A DNA stretch of 64,000 nucleotides. Source: Caldilineaceae bacterium. Lineage in GTDB: Bacteria; Chloroflexota; Anaerolineae; Caldilineales; Caldilineaceae. Below the pieces are notes generated by a model. That model made no database searches and was not told the DNA's origin. It saw nothing but the letters and a program-made list of their open reading frames with translations. The DNA is taken from positions 1 to 64,000 of the forward strand of contig JALHQH010000033.1 of assembly GCA_022842065.1 (NCBI GenBank), given 5' to 3'. This document shows, piece by piece, positions 23,557 through 52,040 of this stretch; the first letter of the stretch is position 1, and every line of letters begins with the position of its first letter. The translations under genes were made by a program, and so were the position numbers.

Positions 23557-23629
23557 TATACTGGCGGTTGTCATCAATTAACACTTTTTCTAGTGCAAAA
23601 AGCGTTAATTGATGACAGAGCTAAGTATA
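23557..23629. repeat. Hairpin in the LacI 5' leader, copy 1 of a pair
   Basis: A stem of about 20 bp with one mismatch (23569-23589 with 23597-23617, loop 23590-23596) extended by an outer TATACT/AGTATA pairing (23557-23562 with 23624-23629). The outer and lower-stem sequence, GGCGGTTGTCATCA on one side and GATGACAG...AAGTATA on the other, is the same as in the hairpin at 51966-52040, whereas the upper stem differs but stays paired. Confidence 0.8.
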
Positions 23630-23715
23630 GAGGCAAAGGTTGAATTGCAAGCCACAAACCCAGTGGGCCGTCGGCTAGGGAGCGCAGAGCAACCTTGCTG
23701 CTGTAAGGCTATGCT

Positions 23716-23727
23716 GTTAACGTTAAC
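23716..23727. promoter_or_regulatory. LacI-type operator GTTAACGTTAAC
   Basis: A perfect 12-bp palindrome with the central CG typical of LacI/GalR operators, 14 bp downstream of the -10 box of the LacI promoter. Probably bound by the LacI protein itself. Confidence 0.8.
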
Positions 23728-23741
23728 GGGAATTAGCGCAA

Positions 23742-23770
23742 ACTATACAACATAAGCTTGTTGCTGTCAA
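23742..23770 (-). promoter_or_regulatory. Sigma-70-type promoter of the island-1 LacI gene
   Basis: On the minus strand: TTGACA (23770-23765), a 17-base spacer, TATAGT (23747-23742). The predicted start near 23735 gives a leader of about 235 nt that contains the operator and the hairpin. Confidence 0.8.
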
Positions 23771-23807
23771 TAGTCAATTTTTTTGAGGGTATTTCGCTTT
23801 TGAGGGT

Positions 23808-23879
23808 AACCGCCTTCCAGGAAGAGGTCAGGCGGTCTTTGGTAATCTAAACGTCTTTATGACCTCTTCCCGGAAGGTT
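23808..23879. terminator. Large hairpin between LacI promoter and MBL gene
   Basis: Arms 23813-23830 and 23860-23877 pair at 17 of 18 positions (AGGAAGAGGTCA against TGACCTCTTCCC) with AACC/GGTT outside. It lies downstream of the MBL gene (stop at 23971) and may end its transcription, or be a dispersed palindromic element. Confidence 0.5.
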
Positions 23880-23970
23880 CCGCCGCATCCGATTTGCCCT
23901 CCATTGCGGTGGGCACTCAGCTGCTGCAGCGGCTTTTCACTGTCAGCCGGCAGTTTTGAACTACCGGCCC

Positions 23971-24717
23971 TCAAATCAAATTCGGTGGCACACCCAACTG
24001 TTTGAACGCCTTCGCCGCCATCTCCACATGATCTTTGCCATTGCGCAGCGATATCTGGACATGACCCGGCAACAGGGCGTCAAAGTCGAGCGCAGCGATT
24101 TTCTGCACGCTGCGGTTATAGGCATCGATGCGACAATCGTGGATGTTTTGTAACACCACACGCCCCAAATGGAAAACCAAGTCCCCGCCCAGCAGATAAC
24201 TGCGGTCACTACCCTGGAAGCGAAAGCTGAGATGGCCGTCACAGTGCCCCGGTGTCTCCCACACCTGAAGCGTCAGATCCCCCACCTTCACAATCTCCCC
24301 TTCCACCACCTGCTGATGGACCGGACAACGTTGCAAATAGAAATCAGCTGGGTAGAAGCCCGCCGCCTTGGCCACATCCAGGGCAATCGCCGTTTCGTCC
24401 TGTTCGTCCATCACCCGCCCGGTCAACGGCGATGCAATGACTTCCAGATCGAGCAATTTTTGTGCTTCGGCGGCGGCCCCCACATGATCAGCATGATAAT
24501 GGGTGAGGATCAGCTTGCGAATGCGCCCCAACTCAATGCCATCATGACGGATATTCTCCAGCACCAAGTCAAAGCTGTGATCCATGCCCAGTCCCGGATC
24601 AACCAGCGCTAGCTCGGATCCGCCATCCAGCAAATAGACATGGCAGTCCAACGGCCCCGAAATGCCAAAGCCCATCCGCCCGCCCCCGACCACATAGACA
24701 TTCTCTGTGAGTTTCAT
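23971..24717 (-). CDS. MBL-fold metallo-hydrolase
   Basis: About 248 residues from the ATG at 24717 with GAAGG five bases before it; an in-frame GTG at 24729 is possible. The metal site is 'THYHADH' (H73, H75, D77, H78), followed by a His in 'PGHCDGHLSF' and an Asp in 'LLGGDLVFH', the pattern of the glyoxalase II-like/lactamase_B superfamily. No signal peptide, so cytoplasmic. The natural substrate cannot be read from the sequence. It is a single gene followed by a hairpin. Confidence 0.9.
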   Translation of the reverse strand: MKLTENVYVVGGGRMGFGISGPLDCHVYLLDGGSELALVDPGLGMDHSFDLVLENIRHDGIELGRIRKLILTHYHADHVGAAAEAQKLLDLEVIASPLTGRVMDEQDETAIALDVAKAAGFYPADFYLQRCPVHQQVVEGEIVKVGDLTLQVWETPGHCDGHLSFRFQGSDRSYLLGGDLVFHLGRVVLQNIHDCRIDAYNRSVQKIAALDFDALLPGHVQISLRNGKDHVEMAAKAFKQLGVPPNLI

Positions 24718-24808
24718 GGTTGCCTTCACTTCGTTTATGCGTTGCCCAAGAAGATAATATCGCCTAGTATAAAGGTAAACGAAAGAGAGGACAAAGGACC
24801 AAAAAATA

Positions 24809-24878
24809 GAACGCGGATTTAGCCGATTCGGTGGATTTTTATCCGCTACAATCCACCGAATCGGCTAAATCCGCGTTC
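24809..24878. terminator. 29-bp perfect inverted repeat
   Basis: Arms 24809-24837 and 24850-24878 are perfect complements with a 12-base loop; the arm contains GCGGATTTAGCCGATTCGG. It lies between the 3' end of the ICMT-like gene (stop at 24895) and the start of the MBL gene, both on the minus strand, so it can serve as the ICMT terminator. Confidence 0.7.
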
Positions 24879-24894
24879 CAGCGGCATTCAAGAT

Positions 24895-25485
24895 TCACCC
24901 CAACTTGGGCAGAAAACGGCCCGTGCGCTGCATGTAAAGCCGGTATTCGTCCCCAAAGCGGGCGAGCAGGTTGGCTTCCTCGTAGCGCGTGCGCCAAATC
25001 AGCACCACCACAGCGGGCAGGAGGAACAGACCAAGCCACCAAAGGCCAGTCAACAGCATCAGCGCCACCATCAACAGCGCGCCAAAGGTGTAAAGCGGAT
25101 GGCGAATCCACCGGTAAGGACCACTCGTTCTGAGTTGATGATCAGCCCGCGTCGCTTCGGTTGGCGAGATGTTGTTACCAATCGTGGCAAAGACCGCATA
25201 CAGCGCTGGAATGGTGCCCAGGGCGATGATGGCACCCACCCAACGCAGCCACGCCGGCAGGGCAAAGCGCGCCCAGGCCACCCACTCTGGATTGATCAGA
25301 TAACCGAACAGCGGCAGCAGCGCGATCAAGCCCAAGAGCCGCAAGGGCAGCAGTAACCGTTGCCCTTCGCTTTTGACTAATTTGCCCCCTTGTCGTTCCG
25401 CTTGATGGCGGAAGTAGATGCTGACCGAAAAAGCAATCGCGATGACGGCGGCTGTGATCAAGCGGAAAAGCAATTCATTCGTCAT
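24895..25485 (-). CDS. Isoprenylcysteine carboxyl methyltransferase-like membrane enzyme
   Basis: 196 residues with four to five membrane helices. The SAM-binding C-terminal part shows the ICMT/PEMT pattern: 'SGPYRWIRHPLYTFG' (about residues 124-138) and 'EEANLLARFGDEYRLYMQRT' near the end. Bacterial members methylate small molecules or lipids; no prenylated protein is expected here, so the substrate is unknown. AAGGAGG precedes the ATG. A 58-bp perfect palindrome begins 32 bp upstream, suggesting tight control. Confidence 0.88.
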   Translation of the reverse strand: MTNELLFRLITAAVIAIAFSVSIYFRHQAERQGGKLVKSEGQRLLLPLRLLGLIALLPLFGYLINPEWVAWARFALPAWLRWVGAIIALGTIPALYAVFATIGNNISPTEATRADHQLRTSGPYRWIRHPLYTFGALLMVALMLLTGLWWLGLFLLPAVVVLIWRTRYEEANLLARFGDEYRLYMQRTGRFLPKLG

Positions 25486-25850
25486 TTCTATCCTCCTTCA
25501 TTACATCCATTGTTATTTTATCTTCGTGTACTATATTTTTAGTCATGACTAAAAATATAGTACACGAAGATAAATGATTTGTCAAGCATTAATTTTGATC
25601 TCATCAATTTCATGCCTTAGCAAAGAACGGACTTTGGTAGATTTTAGCTGTGCCACCACAAAAATGGCACATAACGTCTTCGCTGTGTGCTCTGTGGCTA
25701 ATTCATCCATGCGACCAGAGAAAAGCGGTCATACTGATTTGGGCACTGTCTAAATCAACCACTGCTTCACCTTTAGGAGAATGACAGTGACCTGATTTCA
25801 TGCTATGCTGGACCAGAGAAATTGATTTTTGTTCAGTAAAGGATCAGACG
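25486..25850. other. Divergent spacer between ICMT-like gene and P450
   Basis: 365 bp. The left third is dominated by the 58-bp palindrome at 25517-25574. The rest, up to the P450 start, is A+T-richer and shows no further gene or clear motif. Confidence 0.6.
25517..25574. promoter_or_regulatory. 58-bp perfect palindrome upstream of ICMT-like gene
   Basis: 29-bp arms meet with no loop at 25545/25546; the centre is TTTTTAGTCATGACTAAAAA and the outer arm reads TTTATCTTCGTGTACTATA. A zero-loop palindrome of this length is a poor terminator but a good dimer or tetramer binding site or cruciform. It lies where the ICMT promoter should be. Confidence 0.75.
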
Positions 25851-27221
25851 ATGAGTGCAATCACAACCCCTACCAGCCACACAACCCGCTTGCCCGGCCC
25901 CGTGATTCCGGCCTGGAGTCAAACGATTACGAACTTGCTGCCCTGGCGCGTCGACTTCGATTCACTGGGCTATATGCGCAAAGAGGCGCAGAAATATGGT
26001 AACTTCTATGCGCTGTGGATTGGTGATAAGCCGATCTATGTGATCAGCGATCCGCAACTGGCGCACGAAATTCTGGTCGAACGGCCTAATGAGTTTCATA
26101 AAGCGGCGCTGGTCAAAGATGCGTTGGACCCGATTGCGGGGAATGGCCTTTTTGCCAACGAGGGCGACTTCTGGCGGCGGCAGCGCAAATTGGCCCAACC
26201 GGCCTTTCACCACGCCCGCATTGCAGCCTATGGCACGACGATGGTCCAGCAGACATTAGATCTGCTCGCTGGTTGGCGTGCCGAGGAAAAACGTGACATT
26301 GCGGAAGAGATGACCAAATTGACGCTGGGCATTGTCAACAAAACGCTCTTTAATGTGGATGTCCGCGCCCAGGCCGAGCACATCGGTGACTTGATGACGA
26401 TCATTCTCTCGGGCACCAATGACCGCATTAACAGCTACAACCCCATCTGGGGTCGGCTCTTCAAAACAAACGCGCGCCGCGAGTTGGCTGCGCGCCAGGA
26501 ACTCTTTGCGATCATTGAGTCGATCATTGCCGAACACGGTGACCAGGGCGAAGATCAGGGGGATCTGCTCTCCATGTTGCTGGCGGCCCGTGACGACGAG
26601 GGCAACCCGATGAGCAAACAGCAACTGCGCGATGAGGTGATCACCCTTTTTATCGCCGGCCACGAGACAACGGCCAACGCGCTGGCCTGGGCCTTTTATC
26701 TGGTGGCACAAGATCCTGCCGTAGAAGCCCGCCTCTTACAGGAGCTTGCCCTCTTGCAGGGCAAACCGCCGACGATGGCCGAGCTGGCCCAGTTGCCCTA
26801 CAGCGAACAGGTGATCAAAGAGGCGATGCGCCTCTATCCGCCCGCCGGTGGGGTCACCCGCCAACCGATCCACGATATCGAACTGGGCGGCTATCCCATT
26901 GCGAAGGGCAGCACGATCGCGATCTCGACCTATGTCATGCACCATGATCCGGCGCTCTACCCCGACCCCGACCGTTTTGACCCCGACCGCTTTACCCCGG
27001 AAAATGAGGCCAAACTGCCCAAATATGCCTACCTGCCCTTTGGTGGCGGGCCACGCGTCTGTATTGGGAACAGTTTTGCGATGATGGAAGCGCGGCTGAT
27101 TTTGGCCACCGTCTTGCAGCGCTTCAGTTTGCATTTGGCACCCGGCCAAAAGGTGCGCGCCCAGCAGGTCTTTACCCTGCGCCCCAAAGGTGGTTTGCCG
27201 ATGCGGATTCAGCCGCGGTAA
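25851..27221 (+). CDS. Cytochrome P450 (1)
   Basis: About 456 residues from the ATG at 25851, with AAAGGA eight bases before it; an upstream ATG at 25800 has no such site. All hallmarks are present: I-helix 'FIAGHETTANALAW', E324-x-x-R327 ('EAMRLYPP'), the 'PDRFDPDRFTPENE' loop and heme ligand C404 in 'FGGGPRVCIGNSFA'. It is soluble (no membrane anchor), as bacterial class I P450s are; redox partners are not in the window. Convergent with the methyltransferase at 27229, 7 bp apart, and similar to the second P450 at 28302. Confidence 0.97.
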   Translation: MSAITTPTSHTTRLPGPVIPAWSQTITNLLPWRVDFDSLGYMRKEAQKYGNFYALWIGDKPIYVISDPQLAHEILVERPNEFHKAALVKDALDPIAGNGLFANEGDFWRRQRKLAQPAFHHARIAAYGTTMVQQTLDLLAGWRAEEKRDIAEEMTKLTLGIVNKTLFNVDVRAQAEHIGDLMTIILSGTNDRINSYNPIWGRLFKTNARRELAARQELFAIIESIIAEHGDQGEDQGDLLSMLLAARDDEGNPMSKQQLRDEVITLFIAGHETTANALAWAFYLVAQDPAVEARLLQELALLQGKPPTMAELAQLPYSEQVIKEAMRLYPPAGGVTRQPIHDIELGGYPIAKGSTIAISTYVMHHDPALYPDPDRFDPDRFTPENEAKLPKYAYLPFGGGPRVCIGNSFAMMEARLILATVLQRFSLHLAPGQKVRAQQVFTLRPKGGLPMRIQPR

Positions 27222-27228
27222 GAAGTTT

Positions 27229-28059
27229 TCAGCGTGGCGGGGTGGCCGATTGTTTGCGCAATAGATAGTGATGGTAGACCAGCTGCCCATCGCGAAAGCT
27301 TTCATAGATCGGCGACCCTTTGATGGCGGCAAAGTTCTGAAAGAGTTTGCGCATCCACCAGTGGATCTGGTCATCGATCAGTGCCAGCTTGGCCTCATTG
27401 TAGGTATCCAACGCCGCGCGGACATTGGGCGTAATATCAACCTTGCGCACAACTTCCAGACCAGCTTGGGTTAGCTGGGCCTCTAGCTGCGCGCCGGCCT
27501 GACTATCGCGAAAATCGGCAAATAGAAAGTAACCACCAGGGCGCAGCACACGTGTGACCTGGGCGACAAATTGTGTCATCGAACCATAACAATGGGAAGA
27601 TTCAATATTGATCACGGCGTCAAAAGCGTGATCGGCAAAGGGTAATGCTTCTGCATCGCCGGTGATAAAGGTGAGGCCGTCCACTTGGTGACGCCCCTGG
27701 CAGAAACGCGATGCGCGTGGGGAAAAGTCCAGCCCGGTCATGGTTTTGGGTTTTAGATAGCGCTTGATATAAGCTGCCCCGCCTCCGCGGCCACTGCCAA
27801 CTTCGAGGACAGCCAACCCAGTTACGTCCACTGCGGTGGCCACATAGTGATAGAGCTGGATAAAATAACGGTTGGCTTCATCGTCTGCCGCCAACAGCGG
27901 GCGATCGGCAGGGTCCACGGGTTCATAGCCGTAATTCATAAACGTCCAGGCCGCCGAATTCGCATAAGTCGTCGCCAGAAATTGATAGACCCGTTGCCAG
28001 CCTTTTCGACGAAATTCAGGTGAGCGCGCCGCAACGCTGCTGAATAGTTGTCCCAACAT
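27229..28059 (-). CDS. Class I SAM-dependent methyltransferase
   Basis: 276 residues. Motif I is 'VLEVGSGRGGGAAY' (from about residue 84), motif II is near 'GLDFSPRA' and post-I acidic 'GDAEALPFADHAFD'. The N-terminal 'FMNYGYEP' and overall length resemble the methyltransferases of mycobacterial phthiocerol/phenolglycolipid pathways, so an O-methyltransferase for a lipid or polyketide-like molecule is plausible. AAGGAG precedes the ATG. It sits between two P450 genes. Confidence 0.9.
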   Translation of the reverse strand: MLGQLFSSVAARSPEFRRKGWQRVYQFLATTYANSAAWTFMNYGYEPVDPADRPLLAADDEANRYFIQLYHYVATAVDVTGLAVLEVGSGRGGGAAYIKRYLKPKTMTGLDFSPRASRFCQGRHQVDGLTFITGDAEALPFADHAFDAVINIESSHCYGSMTQFVAQVTRVLRPGGYFLFADFRDSQAGAQLEAQLTQAGLEVVRKVDITPNVRAALDTYNEAKLALIDDQIHWWMRKLFQNFAAIKGSPIYESFRDGQLVYHHYLLRKQSATPPR

Positions 28060-28122
28060 AGAGAGGCTCCTTGTCCTATTTGATCAGAAGTTTAACCCAG
28101 CCCAACCGCACATTGATCTATC

Positions 28123-28181
28123 GGACTTACGCAGTTACCGTAGGCTGAGCGTGTCGAAGCCTACGGTAACTGCGTAAGTCC
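28123..28181. repeat. Inverted repeat with GCTGAGCGTGTCGAAGC core
   Basis: Arms 28123-28145 and 28159-28181 are perfect complements over 23 bp. The core, GGCTGAGCGTGTCGAAGCC, is nearly the reverse complement of the core of the element at 62764-62816. It lies between the methyltransferase start and the second P450. Confidence 0.7.
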
Positions 28182-28301
28182 TAGCATAAATCAACCATCT
28201 AATGCACCTTTCGGTGGATGTCATGCGCCACACGAAAGTATATACTGGTTGCAATCGGGCAAATTCACAAATTTGACATTGACTGTCGCGGAGCTAAATG
28301 C

Positions 28302-29696
28302 ATGACAACCACCCTTTCCGGCCAACAACCAACCAAATCCTACCAACTACCCAGCAAGCCAGGAAGCCATTTCTTGCTGGGTGATCTAAATGAATTTTCC
28401 AACAACCGGCTGGCCTACATGCAGACCATTGCCGACCACTACAGCCCGCTGGTCGAAGTGCGCTTTGGGCCAGTCAAACAATTGGTCATTACCAGCCCCG
28501 AACTGGCTCAACAGGTGTTGCAGAGCAACAGTCGCAACTACATGAAAGAACAATTCTTTATGCACTTCACCCGTCTGGCGCTGACCAGCGGGGATAATCT
28601 CTGTACTAGCGACGGCGACTATTGGCGCCAACAGCGGCGCATTATGCAGCCCATGTTTCACCGCAAACAGATCGCCCACTTTGGCGAGGTGATCAATCGC
28701 GAGACGAGTAAGCTGCTGGATCGCTGGGCAACGATCGTCAACCAGGACCAACCAGTGGACATCGCCGACGCGCTGATGCAACTGACTATGCAGATTATCG
28801 GCTATACCATGCTCAACGTCGATATCGAGCAGGAGCAACGGGCCTTGCACGAAGCCTATGCCTTTGTCAGTAGCGACATCGTGGCGCGCTCGGCCAATCC
28901 GCTGGGGTTGCCGCTCTGGGTCCCTACCCCGAACAATCGGCGTTTCACCCACGCATTAGAGACGATTCACCAGGCACTGCGTGGGATTATCCAACGCCGG
29001 CAACAGCAAACCGCACCGCAAACTGATCTGTTGGACATGTTGATCGCGGCCCGCTACGAAGAGAGCGGTGGCCAAATGAGCACCCCGCAGTTGCTGGACG
29101 AACTCTTTGGCATCGTCAGCGCTGGGCATGAGACAACATCGATGGCGCTCATGTGGGCATTTTATCTGCTGGCCAACCATCCGGAAGCGGAAGAAAAGTT
29201 GCACGCTGAAGTCGATGAGGTATTGGCCGGGCGTTTACCAACGGTGCCTGATCTGGCGCAATTGCCTTACACGCGTATGGTGATCCAAGAGACCTTGCGC
29301 CTCTATCCGCCCGCCTATGTCACCACCCGGCAGGCCGTTAATGCGGATACAATGAATGGCCATCCCATCCGTGCCGGGTTGAAGCTGATTGTTAATATCT
29401 ATGGGCTACAGCGCCACCGCGATTACTGGACCGAGCCACAACACTTCGCGCCCGAACGCTTTGCCCCGGAAAACGAGGCAGCGCTGACCAAATTTGCCTA
29501 TCTGCCCTTTGGCGCAGGGCCGCGCAAATGTATCGGCGAACCTTTGGCGATGATGGAAGCGCAACTGATCTTGGCGGCGATTGCCCAACGCTATTGGCTG
29601 GCGCTTGTGTCTGATCGACTGGTTCAACCAGAAGCGGCTTTTGTGCTCCGCGCCAAAGGTGGGTTGTGGATGCGGTTGCGGGCGCGGGGTGCGTAA
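28302..29696 (+). CDS. Cytochrome P450 (2)
   Basis: About 464 residues from the ATG at 28302 with GGAG at 28290-28293. I-helix 'SAGHETTSMALMWAFYLL', ExxR in 'QETLRLYPP', and heme ligand C410 in 'FGAGPRKCIGEPLA'. Its layout is the same as the first P450 (for example both have the 'FAPENEA/FTPENEA...FAYLPFG' segment before the Cys loop), so the two are probably paralogues. Soluble. Its substrate is unknown; with the methyltransferase it may tailor one lipid or secondary metabolite. Confidence 0.96.
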   Translation: MTTTLSGQQPTKSYQLPSKPGSHFLLGDLNEFSNNRLAYMQTIADHYSPLVEVRFGPVKQLVITSPELAQQVLQSNSRNYMKEQFFMHFTRLALTSGDNLCTSDGDYWRQQRRIMQPMFHRKQIAHFGEVINRETSKLLDRWATIVNQDQPVDIADALMQLTMQIIGYTMLNVDIEQEQRALHEAYAFVSSDIVARSANPLGLPLWVPTPNNRRFTHALETIHQALRGIIQRRQQQTAPQTDLLDMLIAARYEESGGQMSTPQLLDELFGIVSAGHETTSMALMWAFYLLANHPEAEEKLHAEVDEVLAGRLPTVPDLAQLPYTRMVIQETLRLYPPAYVTTRQAVNADTMNGHPIRAGLKLIVNIYGLQRHRDYWTEPQHFAPERFAPENEAALTKFAYLPFGAGPRKCIGEPLAMMEAQLILAAIAQRYWLALVSDRLVQPEAAFVLRAKGGLWMRLRARGA

Positions 29697-29699
29697 GCG

Positions 29700-29733
29700 T
29701 TCATAGGGACATGATGCATCATGTCCCTATGAA
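29700..29733. terminator. 34-bp perfect palindrome after P450 (2)
   Basis: 17-bp arms centred at 29716/29717, with TAGGGACATGATG in each. It lies 4 bp after the P450 stop. A second near-perfect hairpin follows at 29762-29792 (AGAGCGG and CACATGG paired to their complements), so the two may end transcription together. Confidence 0.6.
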
Positions 29734-29761
29734 CGAGGGGAAATTTTGTGCTATAAACGCC

Positions 29762-29792
29762 AGAGCGGCCACATGGACCATGTGACCGCTCT
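29762..29792. terminator. Hairpin with single mismatch
   Basis: Arms 29762-29776 and 29778-29792 pair at 14 of 15 positions around one central base. It may serve both the plus-strand P450 and the minus-strand small genes that end at 29863. Confidence 0.55.
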
Positions 29793-29862
29793 GCTTGGAG
29801 GATATCGAATTTTCGGTTGTTAGTGGACATTGGGTGGTTGCCGCTTAACCCTCATGCTGCTG

Positions 29863-30063
29863 TTAGCAGGCCGGCTCAATCGTGGCCGGTTGGCGGGGCG
29901 CAACCCACTTGTCCTTCTGTTCGCTCAGCCAGTGAACCCAAGTCGCAATGGGCAAAGTCTGGCGTTGTGGTCGTTGGATCAGCCGTCTTTTGGCTGCAAT
30001 GACCAGGCGTTCCTCGTGGTGGAGGTGGGCCAGGGTTTCCAGTTGGTAATAGTTAATCATCAT
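29863..30063 (-). CDS. Small hypothetical protein
   Basis: About 66 residues from the ATG at 30063; an in-frame ATG at 30105 would add 14 residues but lacks a ribosome site. The N-terminal part 'NYYQLETLAHLHHEERL' looks like one amphipathic helix rich in His and Glu, followed by a basic stretch 'AAKRRLIQRPQR'. I do not recognise the family for certain. It is followed on the same strand by nothing, and preceded by another small gene 82 bp away. Confidence 0.45.
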   Translation of the reverse strand: MMINYYQLETLAHLHHEERLVIAAKRRLIQRPQRQTLPIATWVHWLSEQKDKWVAPRQPATIEPAC

Positions 30064-30144
30064 ATAATACTCACTTTTTAGAAAAGGTGTAATGCTGTCG
30101 TCCATGATCGACGTACGCTGCTAACGGGTGCTTAAGTCAGGCGC

Positions 30145-30366
30145 TTAAGATGGGCGCAGCGCACGGATCCGCGTTTGCAATGCACTCAACAACAGGCCAT
30201 AAAAGGTCGTTGCTGTCTGCGCTGCTGTGGCGCTGCTGGCTACGGCTTGGCGCGCTTTGCTGGTACGTTTCTGCACCGGCAACAGACGCAACATGGCTGC
30301 CTGCTTGACAAAGCCGTTATAGCGCTCCTGTTGGATCGTGGTTAGGGTATTGACATCGTTCAACAT
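30145..30366 (-). CDS. Small hypothetical protein
   Basis: 73 residues, basic, helical, no recognised domain. The reading is supported by a strong ribosome site (AAGGAGG seven bases before the ATG). The middle has a Lys/Arg-Ala-rich segment 'QKRTSKARQAVASSATAAQTA'-like stretch that resembles short DNA- or membrane-associated helices, but no function can be given. It belongs to a group of three small minus-strand genes facing away from the BTAD regulator. Confidence 0.6.
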   Translation of the reverse strand: MLNDVNTLTTIQQERYNGFVKQAAMLRLLPVQKRTSKARQAVASSATAAQTATTFYGLLLSALQTRIRALRPS

Positions 30367-30395
30367 GTTCGTCCTCCTTTTCTATGCCCCGCTCT

Positions 30396-30452
30396 GTTTG
30401 AAAACCAGTATCACGCCCAGTGTGGGGTAGAACTGGCACATGGTTTTCAAAC
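30396..30452. repeat. 12-bp inverted repeat upstream of small gene
   Basis: GTTTGAAAACCA at 30396-30407 and its complement at 30441-30452, spaced by 33 bases, 30 bp upstream of the small gene's start. It could be an operator; the rest of the 270-bp spacer (to 30639) shows no gene. Confidence 0.4.
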
Positions 30453-30639
30453 TTATCGCAGAGTTGCTACCTGCCTGTTGATTATAGGCTCGCCTGCGTC
30501 ATTGCGTGTCTATCAACGTGTCTATCCAAACATCTGTTCTTGCACGAGTTTTTGATGGGCAAAAAGATCACGCAATTTACGCTGATTTTTCCTCAGATCA
30601 GGCGTCCCGTTGGGACGAAAACGGCTAGCGGGTTATGGC

Positions 30640-30921
30640 TCAGATAAACAGCTCTAGAACCAACGTTTCACTGTGTAAAGGTGAAACGAGTGCAACATCG
30701 GCGGTATGCGCTAAAGTCGCACATTCACCGGCCTGTAGCACAAAATCTCTACCCCCATGCGAAATGTGCGCAATGCCACGGCTCGTGCGTACTTGGCGAT
30801 AGGTGGCGGGCACGCGGTAGAGTTCGTTGGGGTGCAGGAAAATTCGTTGGGCCAGCGCACCTCGATCGGCACTACCTGTCTGCTGCCCTTTGCTTGAAGT
30901 CTGTGCTAACTTGGTCTCCAT
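30640..30921 (-). CDS. DUF2917-like small protein
   Basis: 93 residues. The core 'RTSRGIAHISHGGRDFVLQAGE' in two parts ('TSRGIAHISHGGRD', 'FVLQAGECATL') matches the beta-rich DUF2917/cupin-like pattern in which a strand with an invariant GxxWxT-like turn leads to 'D.VL.aGe'. Function unknown. AAGAGGAAG precedes the ATG at 30921. It is divergently arranged with the large BTAD regulator, 258 bp away. Confidence 0.65.
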   Translation of the reverse strand: METKLAQTSSKGQQTGSADRGALAQRIFLHPNELYRVPATYRQVRTSRGIAHISHGGRDFVLQAGECATLAHTADVALVSPLHSETLVLELFI

Positions 30922-31178
30922 GCCAATCTTCCTCTTTTATCCCCTGTTTTGGGTAACGTTCGCCATCTAGGCTACAATCAGGTAATTGGATAATTAGGTG
31001 ATTCCGCTAAGCATTTGCGACCTAATGGCGGGTACCCATGCGGTGCGGCTCACGCCGAAGTCGTAATCAGCTCATCACCCCATTACCAATTCATTTGTTC
31101 TTTTCAGAGTATAGTGCTCTGCCGTTATTCAGTGTCTATGGCATTGTCAATGGGCAGGCCGTTTGGTCTTGAATCGTT

Positions 31179-42426: not shown

Positions 42427-42590
42427 TGGTGGTCGTTGACCCAATTATTTACTCAATTCCCATCAAGGCTGGCGTCTTGGCCCGCGGGTTAAAACCCTCA
42501 GCTACCCTCAGTCGTCACTCCGTGACTAACAGGCAAGTCCTCTATCAACATTTGTTTCACAAAACACAAGACTGCGCGTTTATAATTTTT

Positions 42591-42670
42591 ATGGTTTGTC
42601 CTTGTTTGTCCTTGTTTGTCCTTGTTTGTCCTTGTTTGTCTGAGTTTGTCTGTGTTTGTCTGTGTTTGTC
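42591..42670. repeat. 10-bp tandem repeat (CTTGTTTGTC), eight units
   Basis: Eight head-to-tail units; four in the middle are identical (CTTGTTTGTC) and the flanking ones vary (TGAGTTTGTC, TGTGTTTGTC). 160 bp upstream of dabB. Confidence 0.9.
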
Positions 42671-42830
42671 TGCATATCTCACCACACTTCAACCCCCGCT
42701 CTCTACGCTGCGTATGTTCCCACTTGATTTTGACAACGAGCGCGCCGGTAATTTGTGCAAGGAAGCACAAAGACATTAAAATGTCGCAATAAAGATATAA
42801 AAGGATATTTGTAGGTATTTGGAGACAACA

Positions 42831-44372: not shown

Positions 44373-46773
44373 GGCACCGTCCGTCCTATCCAGCCAATTG
44401 CGGCCTGATTTCGCTGAGATCGCAGTGACAGCAAGCCTACGCGCGCAGATTGAGCAGATCTGTGCCCGCATTCCCCCACTGTGGGACCTGCCCAATTATG
44501 TGGCGGTTAATCCCTTCTTGGGCTTTGCCGGCGACCCCATGCCCTGGGCCGCGCAGCAGATCCGTGATGGCTTGGGGGGGCGCTTATTGCCCGCAGTGGC
44601 CTTTTATCGTACGCGCTGGCAAGCCGGCACCTTTACCCATACTCACCTGGCGAAAGCCGCCGCCCGCACCGGCCACGAAGGGGCTGAACTCCAGGCCATC
44701 TTGGAGGGCACAGCCCGTATGCCCTCGCGCGCCAGCCAGACGGTCTTGACCTTTGCCGAACGCTATGATCAACGCTGTGGCACGGACTGGCACAACACAC
44801 TCGTCCGCCACACGGCACTCTGGTGTGCGGTGCAGATCCCAAAGAGCGATCAGCAATCGCTACCAACCGTAGCAGGGCAAGCGCTCTTTGCCGCGTGGCG
44901 CGCCGCGGCTCAAGTTGATCGGTCCCTGGAGCTAGCCGGATTGGCGGGTTGGCGCGCCTGGGTGCGGGCGCTACCCGCCACGGCCGAAGCCGCGATTGCC
45001 GCCATGCTGGCGTACTTACCAGTGACCCCGGCTGAACAACCGGCCTATCTTTACCGTCTGCTTAGTGGCGTCTATGGCTGGGCTTGCTATCTGCGCCGCA
45101 GCACTTGGTCAACTGGCAAGGGGGAAGCCGGTGCCCTGGCCGATCTCCTGGCCATCCGCATCTGTAGCGATGCGGCGATTACAGCCCTAACCCCAGTTAG
45201 CACTGCGCCGCTGACCACGACCTTAACTGGCACCTTGGTGGAAGATGAAACGGTCTTGGCGGTTTTTCAAGAAGCGCTTGAAGATGGCTACGCCGATCAA
45301 CTCTTGGGGCGGCTCAATAGGCCCGGTACCCTATCGACAACCAGCGTGCGCCCTCCTGTGCAGGCGGCCTTTTGTATCGATGTACGCTCGGAACCGCTGC
45401 GACGCCAGCTCGAAGCCCAAGATGGGGCGATTCAAACGTTGGGTTTTGCCGGTTTCTTTGGTGTAAGTCTCGCCTGGGAGGCAGATGGCACGTGCAGTGC
45501 GCGCTGTCCTGTCCTGATCCAACCAGCAGTGACATTACAGTCGCTTATGCCGCCAGTGCCAACCGTGAGCACGCTGGCCAAAGCAATTCAGCAAACGCCG
45601 GCTGCGTTTACCTATGTCGAACTGTTAGGCCTCTACTATGGCCTGACCCTGGCCGGCGATGCTTTGCATTGGTCAGGCGCGCCACAGAATCGAGAAACCC
45701 AACTGCCTTTTACGCTCCAGCCGGCGGCGGGGGGCCGTGGTCTACCATTGGCCGACCGGATTGCAGTAGCTGCGGGCATTCTCAAAAATATGGGCTTGCG
45801 TGACACCTTTGCCCGTTTGGTTTTGCTCTGTGGGCATGGCAGTAGCAGCACGAACAACGCCCATGCGGCCGGTTTAGAATGTGGTGCCTGTGGTGGGCAC
45901 AGCGGTGCGCTGAACAGCCGTGTCGCCGCAGTGCTGTTGAATGATCCCGATGTGCGCGCTGGTTTGGCAGCCCAAGGCTGGGCGATTCCGACCGACACCT
46001 ACTTTGTGGCCGGTTTACACGATACCACCCTTGATCAGGTAAGCTTGCTCGACACCCTCCAGATGCCGGCGACCCACCAGGCCGATCGGCTGCAACTGGA
46101 ACATTGGTTGGCGCGCGCTGGGGCAGCGGTGCGCGCGGAACGGGCTGCTGGTCTCGGCTTGTCCAAAGCCACTGGCTCCTGGCTTGACCGCCTGATCCAG
46201 CGGCGCGCCCAGGATTGGGCCGAGGTACGCCCGGAGTGGGCGCTGGCGCGCAACGCCGCCTTTATCGCCGCCCGCCGCAGCCGCACCCGAAACGTCGATC
46301 TCCAAGGGCGCACTTTCCTCCATGACTATGACTGGACCACCGACCCGGACAATTCAATTTTGACGTTGATTCTCGCCGCGCCCATGGTGGTGGCTTCGTG
46401 GATCAATCTTCAATACTTTGCCTCGACGGTGGACAATGCGACCTTTGGCTGTGGCACCAAGGCGCTGCACAACCGGGTGGGTACCACTGGCGTGGTACTA
46501 GGCAATGGCGGTGATTTGCGCACGGGGCTGGCCCTCCAATCGGTCCATGCACCTGATGGCGAATGGTATCATGAACCGCTGCGCTTACAGGTGGTGGTGG
46601 AAGCGCCGACCGAACGCATTGACGCTGTGTTGGCGGCCAATGCGGCGGTCAAAAATTTAGTAGAAAATGGCTGGGTGCGCCTCTTTGCCCTGGATCGGGA
46701 CAGCCCGCTGGTCCAGCAGTGGACCCCGACTGCGGGTTGGCAGGTGGCGCAGGTTGACGGAAAGACACATTAG
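44365..46773 (+). CDS. dabA: DabA, zinc-binding carbonic-anhydrase-like subunit (DUF2309)
   Basis: 802 residues from the ATG at 44365 with GAGGTGG upstream; longer upstream frames overlap dabB and are shadow. The metal/active residues match the DabA pattern: C337 and D339 in 'AAFCIDVRSEPLR', H491 in 'LCGHGSSS' and C506 in 'LECGACGGHS', with the His-Cys spacing of 15 residues seen in the family. Soluble, docked to DabB at the membrane, where it converts CO2 to bicarbonate vectorially. In an organism without visible autotrophy genes here, it may serve anaplerotic carboxylation. Confidence 0.95.
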   Translation: MLKAPSVLSSQLRPDFAEIAVTASLRAQIEQICARIPPLWDLPNYVAVNPFLGFAGDPMPWAAQQIRDGLGGRLLPAVAFYRTRWQAGTFTHTHLAKAAARTGHEGAELQAILEGTARMPSRASQTVLTFAERYDQRCGTDWHNTLVRHTALWCAVQIPKSDQQSLPTVAGQALFAAWRAAAQVDRSLELAGLAGWRAWVRALPATAEAAIAAMLAYLPVTPAEQPAYLYRLLSGVYGWACYLRRSTWSTGKGEAGALADLLAIRICSDAAITALTPVSTAPLTTTLTGTLVEDETVLAVFQEALEDGYADQLLGRLNRPGTLSTTSVRPPVQAAFCIDVRSEPLRRQLEAQDGAIQTLGFAGFFGVSLAWEADGTCSARCPVLIQPAVTLQSLMPPVPTVSTLAKAIQQTPAAFTYVELLGLYYGLTLAGDALHWSGAPQNRETQLPFTLQPAAGGRGLPLADRIAVAAGILKNMGLRDTFARLVLLCGHGSSSTNNAHAAGLECGACGGHSGALNSRVAAVLLNDPDVRAGLAAQGWAIPTDTYFVAGLHDTTLDQVSLLDTLQMPATHQADRLQLEHWLARAGAAVRAERAAGLGLSKATGSWLDRLIQRRAQDWAEVRPEWALARNAAFIAARRSRTRNVDLQGRTFLHDYDWTTDPDNSILTLILAAPMVVASWINLQYFASTVDNATFGCGTKALHNRVGTTGVVLGNGGDLRTGLALQSVHAPDGEWYHEPLRLQVVVEAPTERIDAVLAANAAVKNLVENGWVRLFALDRDSPLVQQWTPTAGWQVAQVDGKTH

Positions 46774-46866
46774 CCCGACTGGGCGGGTGGCGGTTGGTCG
46801 ATTAGCCCTGACCAACCATTTGGCCGCAGCCGCCACCGTTCAGTCAGGACAAAGCCAGACAGACGG

Positions 46867-48639
46867 TTATGCCGCCATCGTCTCGCGGGCGCTCATCTGT
46901 TGCATCTCCAGCACATGGTGATAATGCCCACCGGCCGCGTCAAGCTCGGCGTGGGTGCCCTGTTCGACAATCTGCCCGTCGCGCAGGACGATGATGTGAT
47001 CGGCATGTTGCGCGGTGGCCAGGCGGTGGGCAACGAGGATTGTGGTGCGCCCTTGCATGACGGTGGCAATCGCATCTTGCAGCAGCCGCTCGGTCTCGGC
47101 GTCAACCGCGGACATCGAGTCGTCGAGAATCAGGATTTTGGGGTCGAGCAACATGGCGCGCGCAATCGCAATGCGTTGCCGTTGCCCACCCGAAAGCCCT
47201 GCCCCACGCTCCCCAATCCGCGTCGCGTACCCTTCGGGCATGGCGGTGACAAAGTCATGCGCCTGTGCCAACCGGGCCACCCGCTCGATCTCGGCCTGGC
47301 TGGCATCGGGGCGACCAAAGGCGATGTTCTCGGCGATGCTGGCGCTAAAGAGCAGCGTATCCTGGGCCACCATGCCGATCTGACTGCGCAGATCGGTCAG
47401 GTTGACGCTGCGTACATCGCGGCCGTCGACTTGCACATGGCCAGAGGTGGGATCATAGAAGCGGCCAATCAGGTGGATCAAGGTGCTCTTGCCGCTGCCG
47501 GTCGCCCCGACGACGGCCAGCGATGACCCCGCTGGAATGCGCAAGTTAATATCAATCAGCGTCTTGGCCTTGGCGGTGGGATAAATAAAACTCACATCTT
47601 TATAAACAATCTCGCCCCGCCATTCCTCCGCGCGCCGTCCGATCGGCTTATATTCCGTCGCCACTGGATCGGGCGAGGGGGGGGGGGATTGAATTGTCAC
47701 CGGTTCGTCGAGTAGTTCAAAGATGCGTACCGCGGCGGTGGCGGTCTGGCTGACACTGTTTAGTTGCGTTCCCAAGGCGTTGACCGCACCCAGCAGCAGC
47801 AAGCTCAAACTTAGCACGGCAACCAATGTACCCAGCGTAATCTCCCCATCCATCACCCGGTAGCCGCCAATCAAGAGCAGCCCCAATTGCATAAAGCGAC
47901 CAATACTACCGATCAAGGCCCAGCGTTTGCTCCACAGGTCGCTAATGGTCAGGCTGCCCAAACTTACCGCCCCTTGTACCTCTTGAAAGCGGCCTTGCGC
48001 CTGCGCTTCTTGGGCAAAAGCCTTCACCACTTTAATCCCGGCCAAGTTATCTTGCAGCGTCGCTGACATCTGCGCCATACGGTCATGTTGCGACGACCAG
48101 GGTTCGGTCAACTCTTCGTGGGCATAATACATGGCTGCGCCCGAGATCAGCACCGGAATTACCGCAATCGCGGTGAGCAGCGGATCCTGCTGTAAGAAAG
48201 CAATTGAGGCCAGGATAATCGTCAGAAAATGGCTCATCGCGTCAACGAGAATCTGCGAGAGAAAGATGCGCGTGCTCTCCACATCACTGCTGACGCGGCT
48301 CATCAGGCGGCCGGTCTGCTCTTTGTCATAGAAGCTAAAAGGGAGGGCGAGCAGCTTTTGATAGAGCGCACTGCGCACATCGGTCATGACTAATTGGCCA
48401 AGTTTATGTTGACCATAGGTATAAAAATAGGTGGCGGTGACACGCACAACAGTCACCAATAACAACAGGCCCAAGTAAGGCATTAAGAGCTGAAACTGTT
48501 GCTTGGTGATCACATCATCGACAATCGCCTTGATCACCAGCGGCGCAATGGCAAGCATCGCCGAGAGCAGGATATTGACAATGGCGACTTGGGCAAGAAA
48601 GCGTTTGTGGGGAGCGAGAAAAGTAAATAGGCGGAGCAT
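46867..48639 (-). CDS. ABC exporter, fused permease and ATPase (MsbA/LmrA-like)
   Basis: 590 residues: six membrane helices (about 1-300) followed by an ATPase with Walker A 'VVGATGSGKSTLIHL', signature 'LSGGQRQRIAIARAM', Walker B 'ILILDDSMSAVD' (Ser-Met in place of the common TSALD) and switch 'LVAHRLATA'. It should work as a homodimer exporting lipid, drug or peptide. The linker between the two domains ('SPPPSPDP') is encoded by a run of 11 C (47677-47687 on this strand, as G on plus), a slippage-prone tract. It is convergent with dabA, and its ribosome site is weak. Confidence 0.93.
   Translation of the reverse strand: MLRLFTFLAPHKRFLAQVAIVNILLSAMLAIAPLVIKAIVDDVITKQQFQLLMPYLGLLLLVTVVRVTATYFYTYGQHKLGQLVMTDVRSALYQKLLALPFSFYDKEQTGRLMSRVSSDVESTRIFLSQILVDAMSHFLTIILASIAFLQQDPLLTAIAVIPVLISGAAMYYAHEELTEPWSSQHDRMAQMSATLQDNLAGIKVVKAFAQEAQAQGRFQEVQGAVSLGSLTISDLWSKRWALIGSIGRFMQLGLLLIGGYRVMDGEITLGTLVAVLSLSLLLLGAVNALGTQLNSVSQTATAAVRIFELLDEPVTIQSPPPSPDPVATEYKPIGRRAEEWRGEIVYKDVSFIYPTAKAKTLIDINLRIPAGSSLAVVGATGSGKSTLIHLIGRFYDPTSGHVQVDGRDVRSVNLTDLRSQIGMVAQDTLLFSASIAENIAFGRPDASQAEIERVARLAQAHDFVTAMPEGYATRIGERGAGLSGGQRQRIAIARAMLLDPKILILDDSMSAVDAETERLLQDAIATVMQGRTTILVAHRLATAQHADHIIVLRDGQIVEQGTHAELDAAGGHYHHVLEMQQMSARETMAA
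47677..47687. repeat. 11-bp homopolymer in ABC exporter gene
   Basis: Eleven G on the plus strand, eleven C in the coding strand of the exporter. The reading frame is open at this length. Confidence 0.9.
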
Positions 48640-49071
48640 GGCTTAGGCACTTTGCATTGATAGTCAGTTTGGTGGCGGGATCAAGGTCAGTCCGACCATC
48701 CCTTTGCTAAAGGCAGCTTATTGTCGAACCGCGCAACAAGCATGCCCCTAAATTATAGAGCATGTAGAAAAATTGCGCACCTTCGAAAAATTAAGCTGCG
48801 CTGTTATACTCAAATCAGAATGAGACCCCTCGTTTCGGTCAGCGTGCGTCGCACTGACCAAAGAATCTAGCGGACTGGAAACAGTTGGCGGTCAGTGCGA
48901 CGCACGCGATCCCGTTAGCCAGCAAAACGCCGGTTCTCAACTTGACTTCAGTATAGCTTGCCTAAGTCCTATAAACTGAGGCTTGACTTTCAGGCTACCT
49001 AATGTTAAAATCCCTTTATGTGTATATACGCATAAAGGGATTAATGAATGGACTTTGTGATGGAGCATACG
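48640..49071. promoter_or_regulatory. Regulatory spacer before ArsR-type regulator
   Basis: 432 bp. It holds an 18-bp perfect hairpin (48842-48859 with 48890-48907) and, nearer the gene, a promoter and near-palindromic operator listed separately. 48640-48830 shows nothing recognisable. Confidence 0.65.
48983..49042 (+). promoter_or_regulatory. Promoter and operator of the ArsR-type gene
   Basis: TTGACT (48983-48988), a 17-base spacer and TAAAAT (49006-49011), overlapping a 34-bp near-palindrome 49009-49042 whose arms are AATCCCTTTATG and its complement around TGTATATACG. The operator covers the start site, the layout of repressor self-control. Confidence 0.7.
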
Positions 49072-50358
49072 ATGCGCAACTTAACCTTAGCGCAAAAGAT
49101 GCCAAAAGCAATTATTTCCACGGTTGCGTTGGAACCAATTCAGCAAATATTACTGAGCATGGGATTGCTGACGGCAGACGAAATTACACAAGCTGAAGAA
49201 TGGCTCAGTGCGCTGGCGGCCCGTTTGCCGGCTGCGACGGCGCACACCAACCGGCTCATCTTTGGCGAACTGGCCAATGCTGTTTTCTGGCATTTGGATG
49301 CCCCCAATTTCCCGGCTTATCTAGCGGCGCTGGCTGCAGAGCCACCGCACCAAGTCGCTGCGCGTGTAAAGGCTGGTATGTCACCGCAACCGGAAGCTGT
49401 GCTACCACAGGCTGTGGCCCACTTCCTCGCTGATCCAGCCGCCATGCAGCAGCGCATTGTCAGCCATCTGCGTGCGCTCTGGGCGGATCACTTTGCGGCG
49501 CCCTGGGAGAAAAAGAGTTTGATGATGGCCTACATTGCGCGCGAACTCAATGGCCGCAGTTGGCCCGATTCGTCTGCCAGTGCCTTGATTCGCGCCTTTA
49601 TCCGGCGACCTGTCCCCGAGTGGCTGGCACATCAATTGGGCGGGGTAGAACGGGTCGTTCTGGTGCCGTCGCCCTATCTGCATTTCCAAGCAGCACGTTT
49701 TACACAGCAAGCCGATGCTGCGTCAAGCACGCTCTGGCTTTTCCTGTGGGCGGACTTTTGGGTCTGGCCCATGCGCACAGAACCAATCCAGCGCAGCGAA
49801 GTACTCAGCCCAATCAACGCGTTGGCTGATGAGACGCGGCTGCGGATTCTCGAAATGCTGGCTGCGACCACAGAACTCCGGGCTCAAGAGATCATCGCCC
49901 AGCTTGATGTCAGCCAATCCACCGTTTCGCGCCATCTCAAACAGTTACAAGCCACTGGCTTTATCACCGAAGCGCGTACCGGTGACACCAATAAGAGCTA
50001 TCGGCTACAGCAGGAGCGGATTGGGGAAATTTCGTATAGTCTATCTCAATTGTTGTCTGCCCAGAATGCCAGTTTGGTGCTCAACGATGTGCGGCTAGCA
50101 CATCCTGCTGAATTACGCCCATTCCTTGATCGTGAGGGGTTGGTGACGAGTTGGCCGGCCAAACGGAAAGGGCAAGAGGCAGTCCTCGCTTACTTGACAA
50201 CAAAGTTTACGGTCGGTGAGATCTATACCGAAAGTGGCGTCAATGAGTTGCTACGCCAGTGGCATACCTATAATGATCCGGCCTATTTGCGCCGCTCTAT
50301 GATCGAAGCTGGGTTGCTCAAGCGCACAGCGGATGGCGCGCAATATTGGCGGGCATAA
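49072..50358 (+). CDS. ArsR-type regulator with N-terminal domain and C-terminal DUF2087
   Basis: About 428 residues from the ATG at 49072, six bases after GGAG; starts at 49048 and 49060 in the same frame cannot be excluded. Residues 1-240 are a helical domain without a known name, then an HTH_ArsR winged helix ('ALADETRLRILEMLAATTEL', 'DVSQSTVSRHLKQLQATGFI') and a C-terminal DUF2087 domain ('SWPAKRKGQEAVLAYL', 'VNELLRQWHTYNDPAYLRRSM'). DUF2087 is often found with HTH domains. The protein probably represses its own operon and senses an unknown ligand. It is alone on its transcript. Confidence 0.88.
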   Translation: MRNLTLAQKMPKAIISTVALEPIQQILLSMGLLTADEITQAEEWLSALAARLPAATAHTNRLIFGELANAVFWHLDAPNFPAYLAALAAEPPHQVAARVKAGMSPQPEAVLPQAVAHFLADPAAMQQRIVSHLRALWADHFAAPWEKKSLMMAYIARELNGRSWPDSSASALIRAFIRRPVPEWLAHQLGGVERVVLVPSPYLHFQAARFTQQADAASSTLWLFLWADFWVWPMRTEPIQRSEVLSPINALADETRLRILEMLAATTELRAQEIIAQLDVSQSTVSRHLKQLQATGFITEARTGDTNKSYRLQQERIGEISYSLSQLLSAQNASLVLNDVRLAHPAELRPFLDREGLVTSWPAKRKGQEAVLAYLTTKFTVGEIYTESGVNELLRQWHTYNDPAYLRRSMIEAGLLKRTADGAQYWRA

Positions 50359-50370
50359 GTTACTGCTGCA

Positions 50371-50434
50371 TGTAACGCTGGTGCACCTGTAGCGGCACAT
50401 TATAGCGTGCCGCTACAGGTGCACCAGCGTTACA
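50371..50434. terminator. 28-bp perfect hairpin
   Basis: Arms read TGTAACGCTGGTGCACCTGT and AGCGGCAC and pair perfectly. It follows the ArsR-type gene by 12 bp. Either a strong terminator without T tract or a palindromic element. Confidence 0.65.
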
Positions 50435-50639
50435 ACCCACGCGGTACTTTGGTACAAAAAGCGACTTTGACAGCTCGATTGCACTTTGTTATACTCAACC
50501 CACTCCTGAATGCGCCCAGGCTCCGCACATGCGCAGAGATCGCAAGTAAACTTTTCTCGCCATGTGCGACTAATTTCCCTAAGCACCAAATTGTAGAACA
50601 ACCGAAAATCGCAAAATTTTTGGAAAATTTTTTAAGGGA

Positions 50640-50668
50640 TTGACAGTCCTAAAAAAGCGTGCTACTAT
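50640..50668 (+). promoter_or_regulatory. Sigma-70-type promoter of the island-2 LacI gene
   Basis: TTGACA (50640-50645), a 17-base spacer and TACTAT (50663-50668). It matches the consensus better than most sites in the window. A leader of about 165 nt follows. Confidence 0.85.
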
Positions 50669-50696
50669 GGCAACGTTGCCACATGGTAACGTTGCC
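50669..50696. promoter_or_regulatory. Twin LacI-type operators
   Basis: GGCAACGTTGCC (50669-50680, perfect palindrome) and GGTAACGTTGCC (50685-50696, one mismatch), centre to centre 16 bp. They begin immediately after the -10 box, so a bound LacI dimer would block the start site. Confidence 0.85.
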
Positions 50697-50840
50697 AGCT
50701 TCCCATTATGGCAAATTTCTTCCCTATCTTTATTTCATTCGCTGTTGCTTGTTTCAAAAAGGCACTTTATTTTTGCTGGTTTACCCCCAGGTTGCGTTCG
50801 TTACAGTTGACGCGCGCTGCCGCGCTGCTGAAGGAATTAG

Positions 50841-51905
50841 ATGGCAAATATCAAAGATGTTGCCCAGCGCGCTGGGGTTGGTGTTAGTACCGCCTCCCGT
50901 GTGCTGCGGGGTGAAGGTTACACAAGTAGCGAGGTGCGCACCAAAGTAATGCGGGCGGCTGAAGAGTTAAGTTATGTCCCTAATCTGCTGGCCCAATCCA
51001 TGCGCGGCCGGCCCACACGCACCATCGGCTTTCTGGTCTATGATATTGTTAATCCGTTTTTTGCCAATGTCGCGGCCGGCGTCGAAGATGCAGCCCACGA
51101 ACGGGGCTTTAATGTGGTCTTCTGTAGCTCCCACCCCTGGAAAAGTAGCGGGCGTGAAGAGAGTTATATGCAGATGCTGGTGCAACGTAAGATCGATGGG
51201 CTGGTGATTCAACATGTTTTTTCGTCGCCGCACTATGCGGATCTCCTGGCCCGCCACGGGATTCCCGCGGCGCGTGTGCTCAACCCCCAGCCCGGCTATC
51301 CCTATGATCTGGTGCGCTGTGACACCAAGCAGGCCACCAGCGATCTGATTCGCCACCTTTTTGCCTTGGGGCATCGCCAGATCGCGGCCTTAGGGCCGAT
51401 GATGCCTTCGTTTCAGGGTAGTGACCGTTTGGCCGGCTATCAGGCCGCGTTGGTGGATGCGGGTCTGACGGTGGATGAAAGCATTATTTTACTTGATGGG
51501 TGGCGCACGCGCGATGGCTATAACATGACCAACCGGCTCATGGCCCAGCGCCGGCCTGATGCGATCTTTGCCTTTGGCCCGCGCATTGCGGTCGGTGCTG
51601 CCTGTGCCTTGCGCGAAGGGGGCTTGCGGGTGCCCGAAGATATTGCGCTCGTTTGCATTGATGATTTTGGCATCGGCTCAGAATTGGATCCCTTTATGAC
51701 CGTTGTCCGCCAGCCCGAACAAGAGATGGGCCGGCAGGTTACGCAACTGCTGATTGAACGGATTCTTGGTGACTATACCGGCTCGCCGCGCGAAGTTGTG
51801 CTGCCGGCCCAAGTGGTGATCCGGCGCTCCTGTGGCGCACAGCAGCGGCAAAACGGAGCGGCTCCACTGCCAGGCAAACCCACCCATCTTTGGGATGATG
51901 ATTGA
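50841..51905 (+). CDS. LacI-family transcriptional regulator (island 2)
   Basis: 354 residues. HTH 'IKDVAQRAGVGVSTASRVLR' (residues 4-23), hinge 'LSYVPNLLAQSM', then a ligand-binding domain ending 'PAQVVIRRSCG'. GAAGGAA lies before the ATG. It heads the second transport/GH172 island, 268 bp ahead of the binding protein, and has its own promoter with twin operators, so it is probably self-repressed and induced by an imported furanoside. Confidence 0.95.
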   Translation: MANIKDVAQRAGVGVSTASRVLRGEGYTSSEVRTKVMRAAEELSYVPNLLAQSMRGRPTRTIGFLVYDIVNPFFANVAAGVEDAAHERGFNVVFCSSHPWKSSGREESYMQMLVQRKIDGLVIQHVFSSPHYADLLARHGIPAARVLNPQPGYPYDLVRCDTKQATSDLIRHLFALGHRQIAALGPMMPSFQGSDRLAGYQAALVDAGLTVDESIILLDGWRTRDGYNMTNRLMAQRRPDAIFAFGPRIAVGAACALREGGLRVPEDIALVCIDDFGIGSELDPFMTVVRQPEQEMGRQVTQLLIERILGDYTGSPREVVLPAQVVIRRSCGAQQRQNGAAPLPGKPTHLWDDD

Positions 51906-51965
51906 GCCGCCTGCGTTTAGACGCGATCGATAAATTTTGACTCCCCATTTCCCCCATGTTGATCT

Positions 51966-52040
51966 TTATACCGGCGGTTGTCATCATTTGATATTTTCTA
52001 CACGAGTAAAAATGTCAAATGATGACAGCGCCAAGTATAA
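51966..52040. repeat. Hairpin between LacI and binding protein, copy 2 of a pair
   Basis: Stem 51979-51997 with 52009-52027 (one G-U pair), loop 51998-52008, extended by TTATAC/GTATAA and GGCG/CGCC outside. Same outer sequence as the hairpin at 23557-23629, different upper stem. Confidence 0.8.

Follow-up and report, generated by a model that had tools for sequence, protein, structure and literature searches.

What brings two long hairpins with nearly the same ends to two different lacI genes in one stretch of a Caldilineaceae genome? The question is raised by 64,000 nucleotides of a Caldilineaceae bacterium (positions 1 to 64,000 of contig JALHQH010000033.1, assembly GCA_022842065.1), the whole of which is referred to here as the window. 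One 73-nt palindromic repeat (copy 1, 23557-23629, + strand) lies in the 5' leader of the LacI-family regulator gene lacI-1, which is read on the - strand, and another (copy 2, 51967-52039, + strand) lies between lacI-2 and a solute-binding-protein gene, both on the + strand. A sequence-only reading of this DNA had described the two as related hairpins with a conserved base and a variable top, and had taken them for a structure under selection that acts as a common layer of control over two sugar islands. Our analysis upholds the description and favors a different explanation. With a probability of roughly two in three, the pair consists of old copies of one short, palindromic, non-autonomous repeat of the miniature inverted-repeat transposable element (MITE) type, comparable to the Correia, RUP, and ERIC elements, and their occurrence next to the two lacI genes is most likely a coincidence amid hairpin-filled gaps.

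The relatedness of the two hairpins was examined by a repeat search of the window, which grouped both as one family (D9) of two copies of 73 nt, and by their ungapped comparison, in which 54 of 73 positions are identical. This identity is concentrated at the termini, where the outer 20 + 20 bases agree at 37/40 positions compared with 17/33 across the middle 33 bases (Fisher P = 1e-4), thus confirming the conserved base and variable top described earlier, with coordinates that were correct to within one base (the second hairpin being 51967-52039). The terminal inverted repeats have the form TATAC-N7-TGTCATCA and occupy 23557-23576 (+; TATAC ... TGTCATCA) and 23610-23629 (-) in copy 1 and 51967-51986 (+) and 52020-52039 (-) in copy 2. 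Their left arm reads TATAC[CT]GGCGGTTGTCATCA, in which GGCGGTTGTCATCA carries no difference between the copies, and GATGACAG...AAGTATA occurs in both. Folding of the + strand gave -31.8 kcal/mol for copy 1 and -36.0 kcal/mol for copy 2 (z = -7.7 and -8.8 against dinucleotide shuffles), with predicted stems of 31 and 32 pairs, and the - strand folds are comparable (-31.4 and -32.7 kcal/mol). All four folds lie 7.7 to 10.1 standard deviations below the shuffles, and 0 of 200 shuffles were as good in each case. Outside the repeat, the 150-base flanks of the two copies share no sequence (best 20-nt ungapped match, 12-14/20).

Bacterial MITEs, as described in PMC2229807, are shorter than 200 bp, encode no protein, carry terminal inverted repeats, have TA at their termini, and are A+T-rich. 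The repeat of the window corresponds in each of these traits. It is 73 bp long and overlaps no listed open reading frame (ORF) of at least 100 amino acids, its terminal inverted repeats are conserved with paired and invariant TATAC/GTATA ends, which place TATA at either end of each copy, and its GC content is 34% and 37% in the two copies against 55.5% in the window and 51% in the two gaps that host them. The repeat may once have been moved by a transposase, perhaps one of the IS630/mariner type that targets TA, and the ends would have been conserved because this transposase needs them, while the middle could have been kept paired by template-switch correction from arm to arm, by a fold needed for mobility, or by both. 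Both copies are probably transcribed, and a stem of about 30 pairs might then serve as a substrate of RNase III or shield an mRNA end. A dispersed palindromic element explains the pair with less than a sugar-control layer does, and should the MITE reading be true, it would reveal a small-repeat family in a Caldilineaceae-type member of the Chloroflexota.

The diverged middle was said by the sequence-only reading to differ in sequence and still to pair, and this holds: 23 of 26 cells of the middle stem pair, and 3 of its 13 pairs are changed on both sides. Across the whole structure in its correct register, 94.2% of cells pair, with three pairs double-changed, one single-changed, and three broken in one copy, while slid registers pair at only 32-52%, a comparison that favors the correct register because the structure was derived from these same two sequences. 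These observations were further evaluated by a null simulation that scattered as many differences randomly and independently over a perfect ancestral stem, yielding on average 18.7 paired cells and 0.4 double changes (joint P = 0.0016 for the observed values). A shuffle control, weak with two rows, reached the observed value in 79 of 500 shuffles. Pairing is kept despite sequence change, as far as two sequences (n = 2) can tell. The further step, from covariation to selection on the fold, is a different matter. Quasipalindrome template switching makes the arms of a palindrome match one another (PMC7202029), and template switching is able to create and maintain stems (PMC8794818). Since compensatory change can also be produced in this way, it is by itself no proof of selection. 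More generally, the pair cautions that a palindrome known from two copies near regulators should not be called a riboregulator on compensatory change alone.

The setting of the two copies is one in which hairpins abound. With 42 chosen ORFs as boundaries, 29 intergenic gaps reach 60 nt, and 17 of them contain a long hairpin (15-nt arms, at most one mismatch, loop below 60), the two lacI gaps included, whereas none was found in each of 20 first-order resamples. A hairpin beside lacI is therefore unremarkable in this window. In total, 45 inverted-repeat pairs were detected, some of them overlapping, and those listed include perfect palindromes of 58-70 nt with seemingly unrelated sequences. Four such palindromes, at 24809-24878, 25517-25574, 28123-28181, and 50371-50434, have perfectly complementary arms of 24-29 nt that differ from one another in sequence by eye. 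They lie in gaps between unrelated genes, and the one at 50371-50434 stands upstream of the lacI-2 promoter sites. An abundance of this kind has precedent. The candidates for repetitive extragenic palindromes (REPs) counted by one tool number 2,724 for Anaerolinea thermolimosa, 2,214 for Ardenticatena maritima, and 4,072 for E. coli (PMC12306157), and by these counts many intergenic palindromes have already been reported in Chloroflexota.

Further copies were sought within and beyond the window. A filter-free covariance scan of the window scored the two copies at 98 and 96 bits and found no third, the next best match (27 bits, 25517-25574) being a hairpin that lacks the shared ends. When 84,980 species genomes (contigs of at least 3,000 bases) were scanned for the exact core pattern GTTGTCATCA-N20-50-TGATGACAG, 96 matches were obtained, one of which had TATAC close upstream, none GTATA close downstream, and none both. 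We judged these matches to be due to chance, with best covariance scores under default filters of 24 bits (locus L091, E = 0.019) and 23 bits (locus L056, E = 0.032). The latter, in a contig named as Prevotella, is a long hairpin at 3254-3348 with the core TGTCATCACGCTTAGATGAC and -53 kcal/mol, has other ends, and was dismissed as a chance match. Pattern scans of viral contigs (IMG/VR) found no hairpin with these ends, and covariance scores over 46 viral loci were at most 18 bits. Two loci from these scans (L134 and L135) hold one different palindrome, beginning TATACAAAACC, on a contig whose ORFs look phage-like by eye; it is absent among the viral covariance matches and was set aside. BLAST of copy 1 with its flanks against phages gave no match, and that of copy 2 with its flanks against plasmids gave one weak match (an Acinetobacter plasmid, E = 0.09). 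A covariance search of five whole genomes reached via chance loci returned 0/5, an empty result that is uninformative for this search. An Rfam search of the window gave no match at gathering score, neither this repeat nor a Caldilineaceae MITE family appears in the titles or abstract starts among the literature matches listed, and the papers listed as containing both arm 8-mers looked irrelevant by title. The repeat family has probably not yet been named.

Several of these results, and others, weigh against the MITE reading. Only two copies are present in 64 kb, and the scan of species genomes, being exact, is blind to diverged copies in relatives. By eye, no target duplication is seen beyond the terminal TATA, itself part of the palindrome, and a Pfam scan of 38 of the 112 listed ORFs of at least 100 amino acids found no transposase domain. 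In addition, selection for the fold could account for the compensatory changes (P = 0.0016). Gaps next to lacI hold 13.9% of intergenic bases in our own gene list, and the presence of both copies in such gaps has a post hoc chance of about 0.02. This placement, beside the compensatory changes, is the best argument for a role in sugar control.

The genes around the two copies set the terms for any functional role. At the first locus, lacI-1 (22488-23498, -; PF00356, PF13377) is followed by a solute-binding-protein gene (20983-22338, -; PF01547) and permeases. Upstream of lacI-1 lies a sigma-70-like promoter site (23742-23770, -; TTGACA-17-TATAGT, 11/12 consensus bases), overlapped by a 9/12 promoter-like site, and downstream of it a putative LacI-type operator, the unstranded palindrome GTTAACGTTAAC (23716-23727). 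Copy 1 lies 58 bases ahead of the lacI-1 start codon and is placed in the presumed leader because the promoter-like site and the GTTAACGTTAAC palindrome sit upstream. At the second locus, lacI-2 (50841-51905, +; PF00356, PF13377) is followed by a family 5 solute-binding-protein gene (52174-54111, +; PF00496) and an oligopeptide-type ABC transporter, with copy 2 lying 61 bases downstream of the lacI-2 stop and 134 upstream of the start codon that follows. Upstream of lacI-2, a sigma-70-like promoter site (50640-50668, +; TTGACA-17-TACTAT, 10/12) is accompanied by a further promoter-like site at 50467-50495 (11/12), and at the former two unstranded LacI-type operator-like palindromes stand next to each other, of which TGGCAACGTTGCCA (50668-50681) passed the palindrome scan and TGGTAACGTTGCCA (50684-50697) was spotted by eye and not by the scan. 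That scan, for CG-centered near-palindromes and run with no chance control, found seven sites in the window, two of them intergenic, and both of these are the lacI sites. The promoter scan covered only sigma-70-type sites, and its shuffled control gave a mean of 0.5 sites per region. Promoter and operator roles at both loci are putative and rest on motif resemblance. Regarding the regulators themselves, the closest organism-named relatives of lacI-1 among the matches listed are from Caldilineaceae (86% and 76% identity), and that of lacI-2 is from a Chloroflexi bacterium (44%). Among all matches listed, the nearest proteins reach 91% and 89% for lacI-1 and 81-84% for lacI-2. LacI protein searches of viral contigs found no relative, and a tblastn search of lacI-2 against plasmids, with 4446 records all below 60% identity, was set aside.

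The best-surviving alternative is one in which a dispersed repeat would have been co-opted for mRNA processing, with RNase III cutting or a block to exonucleases giving regulator and transporter different mRNA levels. No sigma-70-like promoter site was found in 51700-52300, the region of copy 2, which separates lacI-2 from its transporter gene. In the direction of transcription, copy 1 follows the lacI-1 promoter site, and both predicted stems are long. There are also precedents, as transcribed Correia elements can be bound and cut by RNase III (PMC2649163) and ERIC is tied to mRNA stability (PMC2229807). However, a promoter outside the sigma-70 type would escape the scan, and the position of the repeat differs between the loci, so that any effect would differ as well. 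We consider adoption as a processing site unlikely, though a side effect of the hairpins on mRNA processing is possible. Such processing would act close to the 5' end of the lacI-1 mRNA and midway along that of lacI-2 and the transporter, and since these are different outcomes, they would not amount to one shared control.

The proposal of one shared regulatory structure, which would govern both LacI sugar islands atop their operators as an RNA element or by binding a common factor, was weighed against the orientation of the copies. Because the two arms are not identical, the direction of a copy can be read: the ends match at 37/40 in the same + strand direction compared with 29/40 when one copy is reversed. 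Both copies thus point the same way on the + strand, while the genes downstream of them lie on opposite strands (lacI-1 on -, 52174-54111 on +), and the copies are therefore opposite relative to transcription. This opposition is natural for the insertion of a mobile element and unexpected for a directional RNA element. The operon positions differ too, copy 1 being in a lacI 5' leader and copy 2 in a lacI-transporter gap, and the leader of the second lacI holds no copy in the filter-free covariance scan of the window. The placement beside two lacI genes and the three double-changed pairs that still pair do speak for shared control, and the conserved arms could serve as a protein site. On the other side, no terminator-like site (GC-rich stem plus T run) was found in 51700-52300 or 23400-24000, no Rfam family was matched at gathering score, promoter-like and operator-like sites are present separately at each lacI, with operators that differ in sequence, and hairpins occupy gaps of all kinds. 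If LacI operons had a widely conserved riboregulator, it would moreover be expected in relatives, and no copy with the right ends was among the exact matches in species-genome or viral contigs. Taken together, the opposite direction of the copies, their different operon positions, the separate promoter-like and operator-like sites, and the frequency of hairpins in the window leave the common control layer over two sugar islands unsupported, and we regard it as distinctly improbable.

A combination of mobility and function can also be envisaged, although it is more speculative still. A lineage-specific mobile hairpin could have been recruited twice into LacI sugar operons as an RNA-processing site indifferent to orientation, where one nuclease would set the surviving regulator and transporter mRNA at both islands, and where selection would keep the middle paired while its sequence drifts. 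We hold this to be improbable; if true, it would tie the ratio of transporter to regulator mRNA in sugar uptake to mobile hairpins.

Apart from the hairpin pair, the window holds other kinds of inverted repetition. Arrays of an 8-base unit at 16146-16687 surround a small ORF (16207-16638, -) of the 23S rRNA-intervening-sequence protein family (PF05635), with GTGACAGG-like units to one side of it and TCACCTTG-like units to the other, and the gene is placed as if in the loop of a repeat hairpin. More arrays of the GTGACAGG/TCACCTTG-like unit with inverted partners lie near ABC-transporter genes at 12006-12117, 14987-15106, and 54103-54441, the arms at 12006-12117 showing 91% complementarity across 53 nt. 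A 7-base unit (GTGAAAC/GTGATGC) also forms arrays, which face their own inverted copies in two places 6 kb apart (55445-55552 and 61430-61506). Two adjacent DUF2961 (PF11175) genes, at 60321-61427 and 61532-62749, lie downstream of the second transporter operon, and a carbohydrate role for this pair is our guess.

Comparison with known repeat systems places the pair among short non-coding palindromic elements and separates it from the Correia, RUP, ERIC, and tagged REP families. A very unlikely identity is a tagged REP or another hairpin of single-strand recombination (IS200/IS605 type or integron attC), for although the palindrome is imperfect and its arms differ alike near the base in both copies, the repeat measures 73 bp against 20-40 bp and has paired TATAC/GTATA ends with no unpaired GTAG/CGTC tag, no recombinase domain was found in the 38 scanned ORFs (an HNH endonuclease ORF lies at 58868-59254), and the attC core motifs do not stand at the repeat ends. 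The tagged REP and attC readings were both rejected on anatomy. An unpaired GTAG or CGTC tag marks the two REP superfamilies, and Chloroflexi are among the bacteria with reported GTAG-tagged REPs (PMC3733652); the likeness to the window repeat extends to intergenic palindromic repeats with an imperfect stem, whereas REPs are shorter and carry the unpaired tetranucleotide tag.

In form, the repeat comes closest to the Correia element (CREE/NEMIS) of Neisseria, likewise short and non-coding with inverted ends and a stem-loop. According to PMC2649163, CREE ends begin TATAG[CT]GG, insertion is often at TA, a few forms measure 69-73 bp, the direction of the core is kept, and transcribed copies form a stem-loop. 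The left arm here begins TATAC[CT]GG against TATAG[CT]GG in CREE, and the remaining terminal repeat differs (TATAC[CT]GGCGGTTGTCATCA against TATAG[CT]GGATTAA...), as does the phylum. Because the rest of the end sequence differs, the repeat is not a Correia element, and this identity was rejected. RUP of Streptococcus pneumoniae and ERIC of enterobacteria resemble the window repeat in being non-coding, with terminal inverted repeats, TA termini, and stable stem-loops, and RUP is tied to IS630-Spn1 (PMC2229807). Both are longer and of other sequence, RUP being 107 bp with 108 copies and RU-1 (= ERIC) 127 bp. At a broader level, Cozzuto et al. 2008 described 92 stem-loop families, of which two thirds are intergenic (PMC2267715); like the window pair, these are repeats that share a predicted stem-loop, a likeness drawn from their description.

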